Shown: positions 6,368-14,870 of the stretch, one piece after another
Layout: the number at the start of each line of letters is the position of its first letter
Position numbering within the stretch: position 1 is the stretch's first letter
NCBI GenBank assembly: GCA_029553295.1
Contig: JAKPCK010000090.1
Coordinates: 1-64,000 of the forward strand
DNA from: Deltaproteobacteria bacterium
Lineage (GTDB): Bacteria > Desulfobacterota > Syntrophorhabdia > Syntrophorhabdales > Syntrophorhabdaceae
Length of the DNA stretch: 64,000 nucleotides
Reading direction: 5' to 3'
Notes under the pieces: model-generated
What the model saw: only the letters and a program-made list of their open reading frames with translations
What the model was told of the DNA's origin: nothing
Database searches by the model: none
Program-made: the position numbers and the translations under genes

Positions 6368-6510
6368 AGTGCCCCCTTGTATATAAAAGGGGTCTACATA
6401 GAGAGGAAAGCTTAATTATTTTCTATAGATAAGGCGGTTAATACCTCCAGTAATTCGAAACTGTTTATATCAAATTTCTGTTTCCTCTACTACTACCCCT
6501 TAAAAATAAA

Positions 6511-6686
6511 AACCCCGCGGATGCCGTGTAAACAGTATTTCTTGAACCTCTAGTTAAAGTGGGTGTCTATTTGCCGGTTCAGGCTTCCCGCTTATCGAGC
6601 GGGCTTGCACACTCCAGCAGGGGAAGACCCCCAAAAAAGAGGTGTTGGCTCTAAGATTACCATTTATCACGAACATCGCAGGGAAC
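6511..6686 (-). ncRNA. ssrS: 6S RNA (ssrS), 5' end inside zapA
   Basis: Read on the minus strand, this region lines up well from memory with E. coli 6S RNA. The shared block GATGTTCG is in the 5' strand (6670-6677). GAGCC follows, then a terminal hairpin CCCGCTCGATAAGCGGG leading into GAAGCCTGAACC. GACACCCACTT is followed by GGTTCAAG, and CGGCATCCGCGGGG is the 3' strand. The 5' CCCTGCGATG pairs with the 3' CATCCGCGGGG to close the long rod with one bulge. TTTTTATTTTTAA follows directly, so the closing stem also acts as terminator. zapA-ssrS synteny is conserved in proteobacteria. 6S RNA binds the sigma-70 holoenzyme as an open-promoter mimic. Exact ends are estimates. The remaining 6368-6510 is spacer before rny with nothing else recognised. 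Confidence 0.88.
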
Positions 6687-6947
6687 CTCAAACTCTTCTA
6701 CCTTTCTTAAAAGTTTTAGGGCCTTTCCTTCAAACCTTTCGGCCTGTTCCCTAAACTCGAGATACTCATCAGTCAATTCCATCATAGCCATTATTACCGC
6801 ATTCAAGGTGTTGACGATACCGTAATCAGTTATTACGTGATTTACCTTTTCATCAACAAACTTGGCTAATCTTTTTATCCTCTCCTCGTCCTGGCCAATA
6901 AAAACAAATGGTTGATTCAGTATGTTTACCTCAACCCTTTTTTCCAT
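6657..6947 (-). CDS. zapA: Cell division protein ZapA
   Basis: ZapA binds and bundles FtsZ filaments at the division ring. The 96-residue product begins MEKRVEVNILNQPFVFIG, typical of the ZapA N-terminal globular part. It continues into the coiled-coil C terminus (ALKLLRKVEEFE). It lies 8 bp after the ZapB-like gene, and the two are probably co-transcribed with prfB. Its last eight or so codons double as the 5' strand of the 6S RNA. Confidence 0.93.
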   Translation of the reverse strand: MEKRVEVNILNQPFVFIGQDEERIKRLAKFVDEKVNHVITDYGIVNTLNAVIMAMMELTDEYLEFREQAERFEGKALKLLRKVEEFEVPCDVRDKW

Positions 6948-7199: not shown

Positions 7200-8313
7200 T
7201 TAATCCATTTTTTGTTGAAAAGTCAAGAATAAAAGGTATGCCTTGATAAACTCATCTATTGACCCATCAAGGACTGCCTCTGCATTATGCATCTCTATTT
7301 TTGTCCTGTGGTCTTTTATGAGTTTGTATGGATGGAGGACATAAGAACGAATCTGGCTGCCCCAGGCTATATCCTTTTTTTCTTTGTTGAGACTGCTCAG
7401 CTTTTCCTCCTGTTTCTTTTTTTCCAGCTCATATAGCCTTGCCTTTAAGATAGACATGGCTATTGCCTTGTTTTTGTGCTGTGACCTCTCATTCTGGCAC
7501 TGGACTACAATCCCTGTAGGTATGTGGGTGATCCTTATGGCAGACTCTGTCCTGTTCACATGCTGACCACCTGGCCCGCTGGACCTGAATGTATCTATCC
7601 TCAGATCCTCTTCCTTTATGTCTATCTGGATATCTTCCGGGACCTCGGGATAGGTATATACCGAGGCAAAAGAGGTATGCCTCCTGTTATTGGCATCAAA
7701 AGGTGAGATACGGACAAGCCTGTGTATCCCTGATTCGCATTTCATATACCCGTATGCATACTTGCCCTTTATGATAAAGGTCACATTCTTGATGCCTGCC
7801 TCCTCCCCCGGGAGCATGTCCACTATCTGCGTCTCAAAACCCTTTTTTTCCGCCCATTTTAAATACATCCTCAAAAGCATCTCTACCCAGTCCTGGGCCT
7901 CTGTTCCCCCGGCACCTGAATTTATATAGACGATGGCGTTCTCGCTGTCGTTCTCACCGGAGAGCATCCTCTCTATCTCATAGCTGTCTATGAGGTCCTC
8001 AAGGGTCTCTATCCTTTTTGTAAGCTCTTTTACATCCTCAGGGTCTTCAGTAGATTTGGCTATCTCCCAGAGTATCTCTATCTCCTCAAGGTCCTTTTCC
8101 CTTTTTTGCCACTCCTCTATCTCTTCTTTCAGCCGAGACCTCTGTCTTAATATGGACTGGGCCTTCTCCTGGTCTTCCCATAGGGTCTGTTTTGCTATCT
8201 CGTTATCCAGTTTGTTGATTTTTTCCTGGATAGAAGGCAGGTCAAAGATAACCTCTGAGGGAGCTTATCCTCTCTGTGAGGTTTTCTATCTTCTGTTTTA
8301 TCTCTTCAAACAT
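7200..8313 (-). CDS. prfB: Peptide chain release factor 2, expressed through a +1 programmed frameshift
   Basis: RF2 terminates translation at UGA and UAA. Zero-frame translation starts at the ATG at 8313, reads 23 codons and meets TGA at 8242-8244. The +1 frame then continues (DLPSIQEKI...) to the stop at 7200, giving about 370 residues, the normal RF2 length. The codon-recognition tripeptide SPF (RISPFDANN) and the catalytic GGQ (SSGPGGQHVNRT) are both present. The junction reads RGYLDL, the conserved RF2 recoding site. A downstream-only start would remove the N-terminal domain, so the split frame is not a pseudogene. It lies 22 bp after icd. Confidence 0.96.
8241..8256 (-). promoter_or_regulatory. 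RF2 recoding site: internal SD-like AGAGG, then CTT TGA C
   Basis: On the minus strand, AGAGGTTATCTTTGAC places a Shine-Dalgarno-like AGAGG four bases before the slippery CUU, followed by the in-frame UGA and C. This is the classical layout in which low RF2 lets the ribosome slip +1, giving autoregulation. The internal SD is weaker than the AGGGGG of E. coli. Confidence 0.9.
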
Positions 8314-8335: not shown

Positions 8336-9505
8336 TTAATGGAGGTTATTCTCACCTATCCTCTTTGCCACCTCTTCACCGAATATAGAGCACCTCACAG
8401 GCCTTACCCCTTCCAGGTGCCTTGCCAGGTCATAGGTCACAATCATATCCTGGATTGTCTTTTCTATGGCATCTTCTATAAGCCTCGATGCCCTATCAAG
8501 CCCCATATGCCTGAACATAATAGCACCGGAGAGCATAAAAGATGTGGGGTTTATAACATCCTTTCCTGCGTATTTCGGTGCACTCCCGTGGGTAGGTTCG
8601 AATATGGCAACATCATCGCCTATATTGGCACCTGGGGCAACGCCAAGACCGCCGATAAGGGCAGCGCAGGCATCGGATAGATAATCACCGTTTAAGTTGG
8701 GACATAAAAGGAGGTCATAATCCTCAGGCCTTAATATTACCTGCATGAACATGTTATCTGCTATCCTGTCGTTGAAGAGGATCTTAGTGTCATCCCCTTT
8801 ATCGGGTTTATCGAATACGATATGCTCGGGGTATCCCCTTGCCACATCATAGGCCCACTTCATGAATGCGCCCTCTGTATATTTCATTATATTGCCCTTA
8901 TGGACTACAGTGATGGCCTTCCTTTTGTTTTTAATGGCATAGTCTATAACCCATCTGGTAAATTTTACTGTCCTGCTTTTGCTTATGGGTTTTACACCAA
9001 CACCAGAGTCCTCTGAGATGGCTATACCCATTCTATCCTTTAGAAACCCTATAAAATTTAAGGCATCTTCTGTCCCTTCCTCCCACTCTATGCCCTTATA
9101 GAGGTCCTCTGTATTCTCCCTGAAGATTATAAAATCAACCTTTTCAGGCATCTTGAGGGGGCTTGGGAGTCCGTGGAAATACCTGACTGGCCTCATGGAG
9201 ACATAAAGGTCAAAGACATGCCTGAGATATACATTCACACTCCTGAACCCTCCCCCTACTGGGGTGGTAAGGGGACCTTTTATGGCTATTTTGTATTTTT
9301 TTACAGTATTAAGGGTCTCTTCAGGGAGTAGTTCCCCTGTCTTATCCAGTGCCTTCTGGCCTGCGATAAGATATATCCACCTTATAGCCCTTTCCCCATT
9401 ATAAGCCTTATTTACAGCCTCTTCAAAGACACCCCTCGAGGCATTCCATATATCCTCGCCGGAGCCATCACCCTCTATGTATGGTATATCGACATATTCA
9501 ATCAA
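8336..9505 (-). CDS. icd: NADP-dependent isocitrate dehydrogenase
   Basis: The enzyme oxidises isocitrate to 2-oxoglutarate and CO2. The 389-residue protein aligns by eye with E. coli Icd: GPLTTPVGGGFRSVNVYLR around the substrate serine, IIFRENTEDLYKGIEW, and HGSAPKYAGKDVINP. The Lys-Tyr of APKYAG and the Tyr/Arg of VTYDLARHLEG match the four residues that select NADP over NAD in E. coli. The start is TTG, overlapping the stop of the preceding small aconitase subunit (TTGA). It completes a citrate-to-2-oxoglutarate unit with the three upstream genes. Confidence 0.93.
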   Translation of the reverse strand: MIEYVDIPYIEGDGSGEDIWNASRGVFEEAVNKAYNGERAIRWIYLIAGQKALDKTGELLPEETLNTVKKYKIAIKGPLTTPVGGGFRSVNVYLRHVFDLYVSMRPVRYFHGLPSPLKMPEKVDFIIFRENTEDLYKGIEWEEGTEDALNFIGFLKDRMGIAISEDSGVGVKPISKSRTVKFTRWVIDYAIKNKRKAITVVHKGNIMKYTEGAFMKWAYDVARGYPEHIVFDKPDKGDDTKILFNDRIADNMFMQVILRPEDYDLLLCPNLNGDYLSDACAALIGGLGVAPGANIGDDVAIFEPTHGSAPKYAGKDVINPTSFMLSGAIMFRHMGLDRASRLIEDAIEKTIQDMIVTYDLARHLEGVRPVRCSIFGEEVAKRIGENNLH

Positions 9506-9999
9506 ACCCTGAATCCCCCATGTTTTATTATATAGTTGTGGAGCCCTTGCTCTTTTAAGATATCCATCATAATAGGAGGAAGCGGCGAGAACTTCTTTTC
9601 TATGCCCTTTGTGGCATTATACAGGAGGCCTTCGTCTACCTTTATCTCCAGGACATCCCCCTCCTCTGTATCATCCATATTGCATATGATGGCAGCCAGA
9701 CCTACATTTATGGCATTTCTGTAAAATATGCGGGCAAAAGAGTTTGCCACTATGGCGTCTATCCCTGCCATCTTTATTATGAGCGGTGCGTGTTCCCTGC
9801 TTGAGCCGAGCCCAAAGTTATTCCCGGCAACTATTATATCACCCTTTTTTATCTTGTTGTAGAACCCCGGTGCTATATCATCGAATACATGTTTTTTCAG
9901 CTCATCGAGGTTTGACCTTAAGTGATAGAAACGTCCCGGTATAATATGGTCTGTGGAGATATTATTGCCAAAGCGCCATGAACTGCCTTTAATTACCAT
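9502..9999 (-). CDS. LeuD-type small subunit of a two-subunit aconitase/hydro-lyase
   Basis: This 165-residue swivelling-domain subunit of the isopropylmalate isomerase/homoaconitase family has [19 protein letters not shown] and [18 protein letters not shown]. The GSSRE motif contributes the active-site serine and arginine. The loop after the first motif carries Leu-Arg, an arginine being typical of IPM- or citrate-type members rather than homoaconitases. It overlaps the large subunit by 11 bp and icd by 4 bp. No leuA or leuB lies nearby, so I infer that it works on citrate/isocitrate. The alternative is 3-isopropylmalate dehydratase. Confidence 0.82.
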
Positions 10000-11257
10000 G
10001 TATAACCTCCCTGGGGTCTGTGAGCCTGCCTGTTAAAGCGCTTGCTGCAGCTGTTGCCGGGGATGCAAGGATTATCTGCGAGTTAGGATTACCCATCCTA
10101 CCGAGGAAGTTCCTGTTCGATGTGGATACACATACCTCATTGTCCCCGAGCACGCCAAGATGAAGACCTATACAGGGACCACAGCCCGGTGCAAGTATTA
10201 CTGCCCCTGACTCAAAAAGCGTTGTCAATATGCCTTCTTTAAGTGCCTCATAATAGATTTCCCTTGATGCAGGGCATACGAGGAGCCTGACATCATCGTG
10301 TCGTCTCTTGCCTTTTAGGATCTGTGATGCAATCCTCAAGTCCTTGATACGGCCGTTTGTGCATGAGCCTATAAATACCTGATTGATTTTTATTTCTTTT
10401 AGTCCGGGATCCCTTAAATCCATCACATTGTCCACCTGGTGGGGCATGCTTACACAGGGATTTAGACTTTCTAAATCAATCTCAAAGGTCTTTTCATAAT
10501 ATGCATCGTCATCCGGTTTTATCTCTATGAATGATTCACCCCTGCCGTGATTTTTTAGATATTCATATGTTATGCTGTCTGAGGGGAAGAGGCCGCATTT
10601 TGCCCCTGCCTCCACTGCCATATTGGCAATGGTCATCCTGTCCTCTATATCCAGTGTCTTCAGGGCACTGCCTGTAAACTCCATGGATTTATATGTTGCC
10701 CCGTCTGCGCCAAGCATACCTATGACCTTTAATATCAGGTCTTTTGGACCCACACCCCTCTGAAATGAACCATTTATAGAGAATTTGTATGATTCAGGGA
10801 CCCTCATCCATGTCTTTCCAAGACCCATGGCCACTGCTATATCTGTAGAGCCCATGCCTGTGGCAAATGCACCTATGGCGCCCCCTGTGCATGTATGGGA
10901 GTCAGCACCCACAAGGACCTCAGAGGGGCACAGAATCTGTTCTGTCATTATCTGATGGCATATGCCTTCCCCTACCTTGAATACATTTGCCCTGTATGTC
11001 CTGGCAAACTCTTTTATTGTTATATGGTCATTGGACAGTTCCATCCTTGGGCTTGGAGACCCATGGTCTATAAAAAAGTTTACCCTGCCTCCATTAAAGA
11101 GGGATTTAAACCCCATCTCTCTGAATCTCCTTATGGCAAGGGGTGCTGTCCCATCCTGGAGCAATACCCTGTCTACACTTACGGTTATATAATCTCCCTG
11201 TTTCACGTCCTTTTTTGTATTTATACTGAGTATCTTTTCTGCAATAGTCTTAGCCAT
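9989..11257 (-). CDS. LeuC-type large subunit, predicted aconitase
   Basis: This 422-residue 4Fe-4S hydro-lyase subunit shows [33 protein letters not shown] and [16 protein letters not shown]. These carry the three cluster-ligating cysteines and the active-site residues of the aconitase superfamily. It pairs with the adjoining small subunit. It starts 2 bp after a citrate synthase-like gene and is followed by icd. That order makes reversible citrate-to-isocitrate isomerisation the best inferred reaction, although 3-isopropylmalate and homocitrate enzymes share all visible motifs. Confidence 0.85.
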
Positions 11258-11259
11258 AA

Positions 11260-13068
11260 TCAGCCCTCTGCCTTTGTAAGGTCTTCAAACTTTATATCAA
11301 GGCCCAGGACACCCACAATATCACCGTATTCATCCCTTATAGGGCCTGAGACTGTGACGCACAGGGCACCTGTAATCCTTGATGAATAAAGGTTGGTCAC
11401 GCTGATTTTACCTGTTTTCATGGGGTTTATGAACCATTCCCTGTCAGAGAAGTCGTCGTGGAGACCTATCTTGTAATATTTTGCCCTGTCCACGACCTGG
11501 GTGATATTCTTTGTTATCTTAATGCCCTCGCTGTTGACCACATAGGCAAACTGGATAAAGGGGTATTCCTCAACAATGTCTTTGAGTGCCTCCTCCTGCA
11601 GTTCCGGGGACATGCTCTTTATCTTTGTATCTTCTATGTACTGTTCAATGAGATGGGCTGCCATATCATATGCCCTCTTCTTGAGGAGTTCAAACTCAGA
11701 TACAAATATCTCCGGCATGTACCTGCGGACAAGGTGTTCCATCTCCTCATCGGATATGGATGTAACCCTGCCCTCATCGTATTGTTTCAGTATCCACTTG
11801 TTTATCTTTGCGATGCCTGGGTGTGTTTTTTCAACCCTCTCATTGCCTGTAAGGGCAAAATGGGAGTTTACCCAGTGGGCTATCCCTGCAAGGCCTGATT
11901 TGTCTGTTATGTTTATTGCAATGGGTCTGTTTAGGATCCTCTTTGTATCAAAGGGTATATATATCTCTTCATTCTTTGCTATGCCGTCTATGTGTATCCC
12001 TGCTGAGGTGGCATTGAAGTCTGCACCTATAAAAGGCTGCTGCTTGGGTATATGATAGCCTATCTCCTTTTCAAAATAGTTTCTTATCTCGGTTATGACG
12101 TGGGGTTGTGTGCCGTTGTCATTGCCGGTGAGGGATATATACTCCATTACAAGGCTTTCTATGGGTGCATTACCTGTCCTCTCCCCTATACCCAGGAGTG
12201 TGCCGTTGACATATGCACATCCATAGAGCCATGCACTTATACTGTTTATAACTACCTTGTGAAAGTCATTGTGGCCGTGCCATTCAAGGTATTCTGAAGG
12301 CACACCTGCCTCATCTATCATTGCCCTTATTATCTTGCCCACCGACCTTGGTATGGCTGCCCCGGGATATGTTATACCTATGCCAAGGGTGTCGCATAGC
12401 CTTATCTTAACAGGGATTTTTGCCTGTGCAGAGAGCTCCATGAGTGCCTGGGCAAAGGGTACACAGAATCCGTATATATCCGCCCTTGTTACATCCTCAA
12501 AGTGACACCTCGGTATTATCCCGTATTCAAGGGCATTCTCCACAATCTTAAGATAGCTTTTATATGCCTGGGTGCGGTTTTTTTTCAATTTCAGGAATAT
12601 GTGGTAGTCTGATACACTGGTAAGTATCCCTGTCTCCCTGATCCCCATATCCTTGACGAGTTTCAGGTCTTCTCTGTTTGCCCTAACCCAGCCTGTTATC
12701 TCAGGGTAGCGATAGCCCTTCTCAAGGCACCTCAAAACCGCATCCCTGTCTTTATCTGTATATAGAAAAAACTCACTTTGTCTTATTACACCGTTTGGCC
12801 CGCTGAGCTGGTGGATTAGGTCAAAGAGGTCTTCTATCTGTTTTACTGTGAATGGTGGCCTCGACTGCTGGCCGTCCCTGAATGTCGTATCGGTTATGTA
12901 GATATCCTCAGGGGGGTCAATTAGTTCTATCTTGTTGTCGAACTTTACCTTGCAGACCTCTGTAAAGGGAAAAACGTCCTTAAATAATTCAGGCTGTTCC
13001 ACCTCTACAAGGGGGTATCTTACAAATTTTTGCTGATTTTTAAATATAAAACCCTTTTTCTTTTTCAT
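11260..13068 (-). CDS. (Re)-citrate synthase-like enzyme of the homocitrate/isopropylmalate synthase family with C-terminal Cache-like domain
   Basis: The 602-residue protein has a DRE-TIM metallolyase barrel (about 50-330). Its acetyl-CoA aldol-condensation motif is [14 protein letters not shown] (60-73) and its metal motif is HGHND (264-268), followed by [10 protein letters not shown]. Residues 350-490 resemble the communication region of the family. The last 100 residues (about 500-598, with [16 protein letters not shown]) look like a Cache/PAS-type ligand-sensing domain instead of the leucine-binding LeuA domain. Next to two-subunit aconitase and icd, and with no leucine or lysine genes, the predicted reaction is acetyl-CoA plus oxaloacetate to citrate. 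(Re)-citrate synthases of anaerobes such as Clostridium kluyveri and Syntrophus belong to this family. Homocitrate synthase remains possible. Confidence 0.75.
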
Positions 13069-13118: not shown

Positions 13119-14870
13119 TTACTTGTCCGACGCAAGCCTTATCTTAAGTTCATTGAGCTGTTTCTGTGCAACTTTAGATGGCGCATCCGTAAGAAGACAC
13201 ACACCTTTCTGCGTCTTTGGGAAAGGTATTACATCCCTTATACTGTCAAGACCCATGAGCATCATAAGAAGTCTGTCAAAACCAAAGGCAATGCCGCCAT
13301 GAGGTGGTGCACCCATCTCCAGGGCCTCAAGGAGAAACCCGAACTTTTCCTGTGCCTCCTGTTCGCCAATATTGAGGAGCTTAAACATCTCGAACTGATC
13401 TTCCTTCCTGTGTATCCTTATGCTCCCGCCACCTATCTCAACACCATTCAATACAAGGTCGTATGCCTTTGATTTCAGAGACTCGTAATCACCGTTAAAC
13501 CCCCTTATATCTGTCTTAGATGCTGTAAAGGGGTGATGTCTTGCCACATATCTTTTCTGTTCCTCGCTGTATTCAAAAAGGGGAAAATCAACAACCCACA
13601 GAAATTTATAGAGGTTTTTGTCAATGAGGTCAAACCTCTCACCTATATAGAGACGGAATCTCCCCATAAGCTCATTTACCTTCTGTCGGTTTCCTGTCAT
13701 TATAAATACGATATCACCGTCTTGTAGGCCAAGCCTCTGGGACATCATGGATTTTTCTTCCTCTTTCAGATATTTTGCTATGGGTGACTGGAAGGCATTG
13801 TTTTCATTTCGTATCCAGATAAGGCCCTCTGCGCCCATCTGCTTTGCCGTATCTACCGAGACATCCAGGTCCTTTCTCGATAGGGTCTTACCCTTCAGGA
13901 CAATACACTTTACCGTGCCCTTCTCTGCCAGTGCCTTCTTAAACACCCCGAACTCTGTATTGGCAAATATATCTGTAAGCTCTATAATAGGGAGTTCAAA
14001 CCTCAGGTCAGGCTTGTCTGTCCCGTATCTCTCCATGGCCTCGTCATAGCTCATCCTGGGAAAAGGCATATCCCATGGGTGACCCTTTACAGTCCTGTAT
14101 ACCTCTTTAACAAGGCCTTCCCCCATCCTGAGGATATCCTCTACATCCACAAAGCTCATCTCTATATCTATCTGGGTAAATTCAGGCTGTCTGTCTGCCC
14201 TCAGGTCCTCATCCCTGAAGCACCTCACAATCTGGAAGTAGCGGTCAAACCCTGCAATCATGAGTATCTGTTTGAATAGCTGGGGTGACTGGGGTAGGGC
14301 ATAGAACATCCCGGGGTTCAGCCTGCTGGGGACTATAAAATCCCTTGCCCCTTCCGGTGTGCTCTTTGTGAGCATGGGTGTCTCAAACTCATTAAAGCCA
14401 TCACTGGTGAGATAGTCCCTTACCGCCTTATAGACCCTGCTCCTTGTTATAAAGACCTTTTGGACCTCCGGCCTTCTCATATCAAGGTATCTGTATCTGA
14501 GTTTTATTGCCTCATTGGGCTCATCTTCATCAAGCTGGAATGGCAGTGCCCTGGAGGTATTGAGTATCTTAAGGGAATATACCAGTATCTCTAACATGCC
14601 AGTTGGTATGTTTGGGTTCTCTGTGCCCTCAGGCCTTCTTTCCACACGGCCTTTTATCTGTATTACAAACTCCTGTTTTAATTCACCGGCCATACTATGG
14701 GCATCAGGGGATATCTCCGGGGAGAAAACTATCTGCACTATCCCTGTAATATCACGGAGGTCTATAAATATCAACCCACCGTGGTCCCTTCTCCTGAATA
14801 CCCATCCTGAAAGGAGTATCTGCTTTCCTATATCATTACTATCCACTGCCCCGCAGTATTTATCTCTCAA
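13119..14870 (-). CDS. aspS: Aspartyl-tRNA synthetase
   Basis: This class IIb synthetase attaches aspartate to tRNA-Asp. The 583 residues match the bacterial form with an N-terminal OB anticodon-binding domain, a GAD insertion and class II motifs, including FRDEDLRADRQPEFTQ, VEIGGGSIRIH and GIAFGFDRLLMML. The start is TTG, supported by GGAGG seven bases upstream. The gene is 50 bp ahead of the citrate synthase-like gene and has its own promoter. Whether it is discriminating or also charges tRNA-Asn cannot be told from what I see. Confidence 0.97.
   Translation of the reverse strand: MRDKYCGAVDSNDIGKQILLSGWVFRRRDHGGLIFIDLRDITGIVQIVFSPEISPDAHSMAGELKQEFVIQIKGRVERRPEGTENPNIPTGMLEILVYSLKILNTSRALPFQLDEDEPNEAIKLRYRYLDMRRPEVQKVFITRSRVYKAVRDYLTSDGFNEFETPMLTKSTPEGARDFIVPSRLNPGMFYALPQSPQLFKQILMIAGFDRYFQIVRCFRDEDLRADRQPEFTQIDIEMSFVDVEDILRMGEGLVKEVYRTVKGHPWDMPFPRMSYDEAMERYGTDKPDLRFELPIIELTDIFANTEFGVFKKALAEKGTVKCIVLKGKTLSRKDLDVSVDTAKQMGAEGLIWIRNENNAFQSPIAKYLKEEEKSMMSQRLGLQDGDIVFIMTGNRQKVNELMGRFRLYIGERFDLIDKNLYKFLWVVDFPLFEYSEEQKRYVARHHPFTASKTDIRGFNGDYESLKSKAYDLVLNGVEIGGGSIRIHRKEDQFEMFKLLNIGEQEAQEKFGFLLEALEMGAPPHGGIAFGFDRLLMMLMGLDSIRDVIPFPKTQKGVCLLTDAPSKVAQKQLNELKIRLASDK

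Follow-up and report, generated by a model that had tools for sequence, protein, structure and literature searches.

A predicted Re-type citrate synthase with a cytosolic C-terminal Cache domain in Syntrophorhabdaceae

The Re-citrate synthase of Syntrophus aciditrophicus (SYN_02536), described by Kim et al. in 2013, is reportedly an active homotetramer with a tagged subunit of ~72.9 kDa. We expect the same reaction from the protein analysed here, which is encoded in a stretch of 64,000 nucleotides (the window), and the Re-citrate synthase of Clostridium kluyveri belongs to the same catalytic family. Bare homologues from Bacillota stop near residue 455, without the Cache domain that follows in the fused enzyme. 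2-Isopropylmalate synthase (LeuA) has the same barrel, followed at the C-terminus by a regulatory domain whose ligand is the amino acid leucine; that domain, however, has the unrelated LeuA_dimer fold, whereas the fused enzyme carries a Cache domain. The Cache domains of PctA, Tlp3 and KinD share this fold and have in common the pocket residues R, W (F in KinD) and Y, with D in PctA. In these proteins the domain lies outside the membrane on signalling proteins, whereas here a single module sits on a soluble metabolic enzyme. YkuI_C, which gave a weak Pfam match as well as a fold match, is likewise an intracellular C-terminal Cache domain, but YkuI is an EAL cyclic-di-GMP signalling protein and not a metabolic enzyme.

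Homologues from Syntrophaceae are 56–60% identical to our protein, are fused, and have predicted untagged masses of 71.1–72.1 kDa. Because these relatives are fused and their mass fits that of the tagged S. aciditrophicus subunit, the S. aciditrophicus enzyme probably has the Cache-fused architecture too; if so, assays of a Re-citrate synthase with the Cache fusion already exist. The enzyme class is known, and the Cache fusion is a new variant within it. In the literature searched, the scope of which excluded the primary Re-citrate synthase papers, we found neither a description of Cache fused to a citrate, homocitrate or isopropylmalate synthase nor any report of allosteric regulation of Re-citrate synthases.

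Catalytic part and gene context

The ORF at 11260..13068 is real and lies on the minus strand, the plus-strand reading being interrupted by stops. The ORF itself, Pfam and its relatives identify the 602-aa product as a Re-citrate synthase-type DRE-TIM metallolyase with a C-terminal Cache domain. Residues 56–450 make up the metallolyase, of the Re-citrate synthase group. Its catalytic TIM barrel (residues 56–328; 12085..12903, minus) is HMGL-like (Pfam, 3.6e-29), carries the motifs [14 protein letters not shown] and GERTGN, and is supported by alignment to citramalate and isopropylmalate synthases and by its relatives. A post-barrel subdomain follows (residues 329–450; 11719..12084, minus), in which the AlphaFold model and the alignment show a conserved GIHIDG segment and helices. 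The signature motifs of DRE-TIM enzymes (TTxRDG, the HxH metal site and GERxGN) are intact, as [13 protein letters not shown] and GERTGN. R64, D65, H264, H266, E296, R297 and N300 are invariant among 77 members, and the motif residues are also invariant in 16 relatives.

The gene belongs to a tight minus-strand run. It begins with aspS, encoding aspartyl-tRNA synthetase (13119..14870; NF001750, 3.5e-254), a conserved upstream neighbour by its linkage in relatives, and after a 50-bp gap comes the fused gene. Only 2 bp further downstream lies the large subunit of an aconitase/homoaconitase-family enzyme (9989..11257, minus; TIGR01343, 9e-169), overlapped by the small subunit (9502..9999, minus; NF040625, 4e-56; TIGR02087, 2.6e-53, the latter above its cut-off), which in turn overlaps an NADP-type isocitrate dehydrogenase gene (8336..9505, minus; NF005425, 501.6 bits against a cut-off of 490). 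Since aconitase and isocitrate dehydrogenase are encoded directly downstream, Re-citrate synthase is the natural assignment. From homology and context, we infer that the protein is a Re-type citrate synthase, which would form citrate from acetyl-CoA and oxaloacetate. The earlier note had proposed a citrate synthase-type metallolyase with a role in carbon entry; the analysis supports both points, the second through the downstream genes and the lack of a Si-citrate synthase in the genome.

It is very improbable that the catalytic part is instead a homocitrate, isopropylmalate or citramalate synthase. The nearest NCBIfam models are indeed nifV homocitrate synthase and LEU1_arch, homocitrate synthases are the top full-chain fold matches, and the aconitase pair looks like homoaconitase. 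However, none of the matches to the NCBIfam homocitrate, isopropylmalate and citramalate synthase models comes anywhere near its cut-off (nifV scores 141 bits where 463 are required, which leaves the protein outside the homocitrate synthase model), while the dehydrogenase of the operon passes the isocitrate dehydrogenase cut-off. Si-citrate synthase (PF00285) was absent from the genome, which is 97% complete, whereas 13 of the 14 controls have one, and the genome encodes a separate LeuA paralogue (L002) with its own LeuA_dimer domain (2.7e-37). Re-citrate synthases are also commonly misannotated as homocitrate or isopropylmalate synthases (PMC12016533).

In Syntrophorhabdaceae, Syntrophaceae and Desulfarculales, and in numerous other genomes of Deltaproteobacteria, aspS was found directly upstream of the Cache-fused gene (relatives L060–L091), a linkage not seen at the Desulfovibrio or Thermodesulfobacteria loci examined. 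Genes for malate dehydrogenase (mdh), fumarase, aconitase or isocitrate dehydrogenase likewise adjoin the gene in Elusimicrobia, Nitrospirae, Omnitrophota and Desulfovibrio. Scans of the operon for promoters and terminators gave nothing above chance; a sigma-70-like site (11/12) lies upstream of aspS, and such sites were no rarer in shuffled sequence.

A Cache domain in the cytosol

Residues ~456–600 form a Cache (PDC) domain. In the full protein, Pfam matched MCP-like_PDC_1 at residues 516–599 (8.7e-14; 52.3 bits against a cut-off of 27), as well as dCache_1 at residues 475–598 (1.6e-11, 44.6 bits, just under the cut-off of 45). When residues 452–602 were scanned alone, both cut-offs were exceeded, at 55.7 and 48.9 bits, respectively. 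No LeuA_dimer match was found in the full protein up to E=1. AlphaFold placed a long helical segment ahead of a PDC sheet, both in the whole chain (pLDDT 89) and in a separate model of residues 452–602 (pLDDT 86.5, pTM 0.83). With the latter model, the top Foldseek matches in the PDB were the Cache sensors KinD (6e-9), Tlp3 (2.5e-7) and YkuI (4e-7), and PctA and PctB were matched at ~1e-5. The protein thus has both a Cache profile match and a PDC fold with a long N-terminal helix. A chance match was ruled out, as all 64 of 64 fused relatives match both MCP-like_PDC_1 and dCache_1 and the separate tail model folds as Cache. Likewise rejected was a LeuA_dimer C-terminus, which gave no match to E=1 here whereas the LeuA paralogue has one.

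These results uphold the call of a Cache domain, and not a LeuA regulatory domain, that had been made from pattern recognition, and they include the profile check and the structure prediction suggested with it. Both quoted stretches are present, VVNSEGIKI at residues 510–518 and [16 protein letters not shown] at residues 542–557. The domain starts ~35 residues before the residue 490 given there, because the AlphaFold helices 458–478 and 488–501, a long N-terminal segment typical of Cache, belong to it. The long helical segment (residues 456–501; 11566..11703, minus) links the catalytic part to the PDC/Cache core (residues 503–599; 11272..11562, minus), which is supported by Pfam, the tail scan, the tail model and Foldseek.

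The domain is cytosolic, as had also been claimed: the protein has no signal peptide and no membrane span, and its best 19-residue Kyte-Doolittle mean is 1.08. The usual, though not universal, placement of Cache between membrane helices and outside the cytoplasm is therefore not that of the fused enzyme. In a survey of the superfamily by Upadhyay et al., 78% of Cache domains were confidently predicted to be extracellular and only two small families were mainly intracellular, while signalling outputs were known for all families but one (PMC4822843). A Cache domain on a soluble metabolic enzyme is unusual, since Cache domains are mostly extracellular and have signalling outputs.

The ligand pocket and a possible allosteric role

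In PctA, D173 holds the amino group of the ligand. HMM alignments placed the motif R543-E-W545-F546 (11431..11442, minus) on PctA R126/W128/Y129, and R543 also on KinD R131; R543, W545 and F546 are conserved in 59/64, 64/64 and 63/64 fused members, respectively. Y561 and S563 (11380..11388, minus) align with PctA Y144 and D146 and are conserved in 54/64 and 64/64. D591 (11296..11298, minus), conserved in 64/64, aligns with PctA D173, a key residue of the amino-acid motif (PMC10104139). The ligand carboxylate in PctA is contacted by R126 and W128 (PMC6974571). Exactly the arginine that aligns with R543 is the one replaced in the R131A mutant chains of KinD. W545, S563, L569 and D591 are the sole invariant columns of the tail alignment of the 64 fused members, and three of these four positions (W545, S563 and D591) fall on PctA pocket positions. 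Overall, pocket positions are more conserved than the remaining tail (Mann-Whitney p 0.0013).

Because these pocket residues are conserved, direct control by a small molecule is well motivated. Our preferred reading, to which we assign a probability of roughly two in three, is that the protein is a Re-citrate synthase with a cytosolic single Cache domain whose ligand, a small carboxylate and probably an alpha-amino acid, adjusts citrate formation. In LeuA, it is the amino acid at the end of the pathway that the C-terminal domain senses; by analogy, the Cache module would take the place of a LeuA-type allosteric domain at the C-terminus, sensing a small carboxylate and altering catalysis. R543 and W545 would hold the carboxylate and D591 the amino group, with Y561 nearby; the binding signal would travel along the helical segment 456–501 and reach the oligomer's catalytic subdomains, and citrate formation would be adjusted. 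The simplest form of this would be feedback control of the pathway that leads to 2-oxoglutarate and glutamate.

An alternative that we consider improbable is that the Cache domain has lost its sensing function and serves as a structural or dimerisation module that stabilises the oligomer. In its favour, packing of the tail helices between subunits is conceivable, Bacillota commonly have bare homologues, and PAS and Cache domains are reported to act in dimerisation as well (PMC8694187). Against this, the pocket residues are among the most conserved of the domain, with W545, S563 and D591 invariant. A degenerate Cache domain was likewise considered unlikely, given a dN/dS of 0.026.

The nature of the ligand is less certain. 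The dCache_1AA motif (PctA Y121, R126, W128, Y129, Y144 and D173, in a double Cache) is not reproduced in full: R, W, an aromatic F, Y and D are conserved, the position of Y121 (residue 538) is variable, and the module is single, not double. With the Y121 position not conserved, the domain falls short of strict dCache_1AA membership. The variability at position 538, the loss of R543 in 5/64 fused members and the existence of domain-less homologues at 52–58% identity all count against the preferred reading. A KinD-like carboxylate, for instance pyruvate, has to be taken seriously as an alternative ligand. As in KinD, what the Cache domain senses might be pyruvate, acetate, oxaloacetate or a similar carboxylate that is not an amino acid, and the domain would gate the enzyme by precursor supply. 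We regard this explanation, which departs from the preferred one in the ligand only, as less likely. KinD, solved also with pyruvate (4jgp), is the nearest solved fold, and the local sequence is very similar (DRSFF..YSSRITG in KinD and DREWF..YSSRITG here). However, KinD lacks an equivalent of the aspartate D591, which is invariant here and key in amino-acid receptors.

Returning to an amino-acid ligand, glutamate and aspartate are first guesses, drawn from biology rather than from data: glutamate because it is the end product of the branch, and aspartate because it is made from the substrate oxaloacetate and aspS is a conserved neighbour. Both the identity of the ligand and the sign of its effect are inferred only. 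More broadly, our analysis suggests that in this anaerobe and many of its relatives a metabolite acts directly to tune the step that leads into the citric acid cycle, the probable candidates being amino acids and other small acids. We see about even odds that Cache has been recruited into the cytosol as an allosteric domain, such that an amino-acid sensor of the chemoreceptor type regulates citrate formation in many anaerobes, where LeuA has an unrelated domain. If true, the conserved Cache domain on the enzyme that opens the oxidative TCA branch would be a case of this fold doing classical allostery, and would hint at the way in which flux to glutamate is controlled in anaerobes that lack Si-citrate synthase. 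R543, W545 and D591 offer a concrete pocket to probe.

Distribution, evolution and surroundings of the fused gene

The gene was found in 146 of the 297 genomes of our phylum sample. Among the 145 gene-bearing genomes that could be decided, 141 carry the fused form and four the bare form; G196 was left out, its gene being cut by a contig edge. Beyond the phylum, the fused form turns up in at least seven others, in records labelled Nitrospirae, Omnitrophota, Spirochaetes, Elusimicrobia, Lentisphaerae, Fibrobacteres and Termititenax. This distribution, in the phylum and beyond it, rules out a frame artefact or a recent local fusion; the architecture is old and widely conserved, not the oddity of a single protein. 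In Lachnospiraceae and elsewhere in the Bacillota the enzyme is bare, and it is 52–58% identical over the catalytic part. Identities of the catalytic and Cache parts co-vary strongly (Mantel r 0.76), so that for the most part the Cache domain has moved together with the enzyme. A tree with the fused forms in one clade was not rejected (AU p 0.35), so the bare forms may be ancestral or may be secondary losses.

Compared with the nearest relative, from its own genus, dN/dS was 0.026 for the Cache part and 0.035 for the catalytic part. Within the genus of the window, the Cache part is under purifying selection about as strong as that on the catalytic part; in other close pairs, its dN/dS ranged from lower than that of the catalytic part to ~3x higher.

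The bare homologues in four genomes of the phylum are L043–L046, of which L046 is a long branch. L044 and L045 group with Lachnospiraceae or Eubacterium sequences, which suggests horizontal transfer or contamination. In genus g75 of the family that contains Syntrophaceae (f32), the gene is absent from 20/20 sampled genomes, whereas most genomes of the other six genera have it. The only plasmid homologues were two Deinococcus copies, 39% identical, with the match confined to the catalytic part.

Elsewhere in the window, a 6S RNA (Rfam RF00013, 100 bits) lies at 6508–6687 on the minus strand, between two minus-strand genes. An ORF at 7200–7967, also on the minus strand, resembles release factor 2 by sequence; its N-terminal part is missing in frame, possibly through the usual programmed frameshift of prfB.
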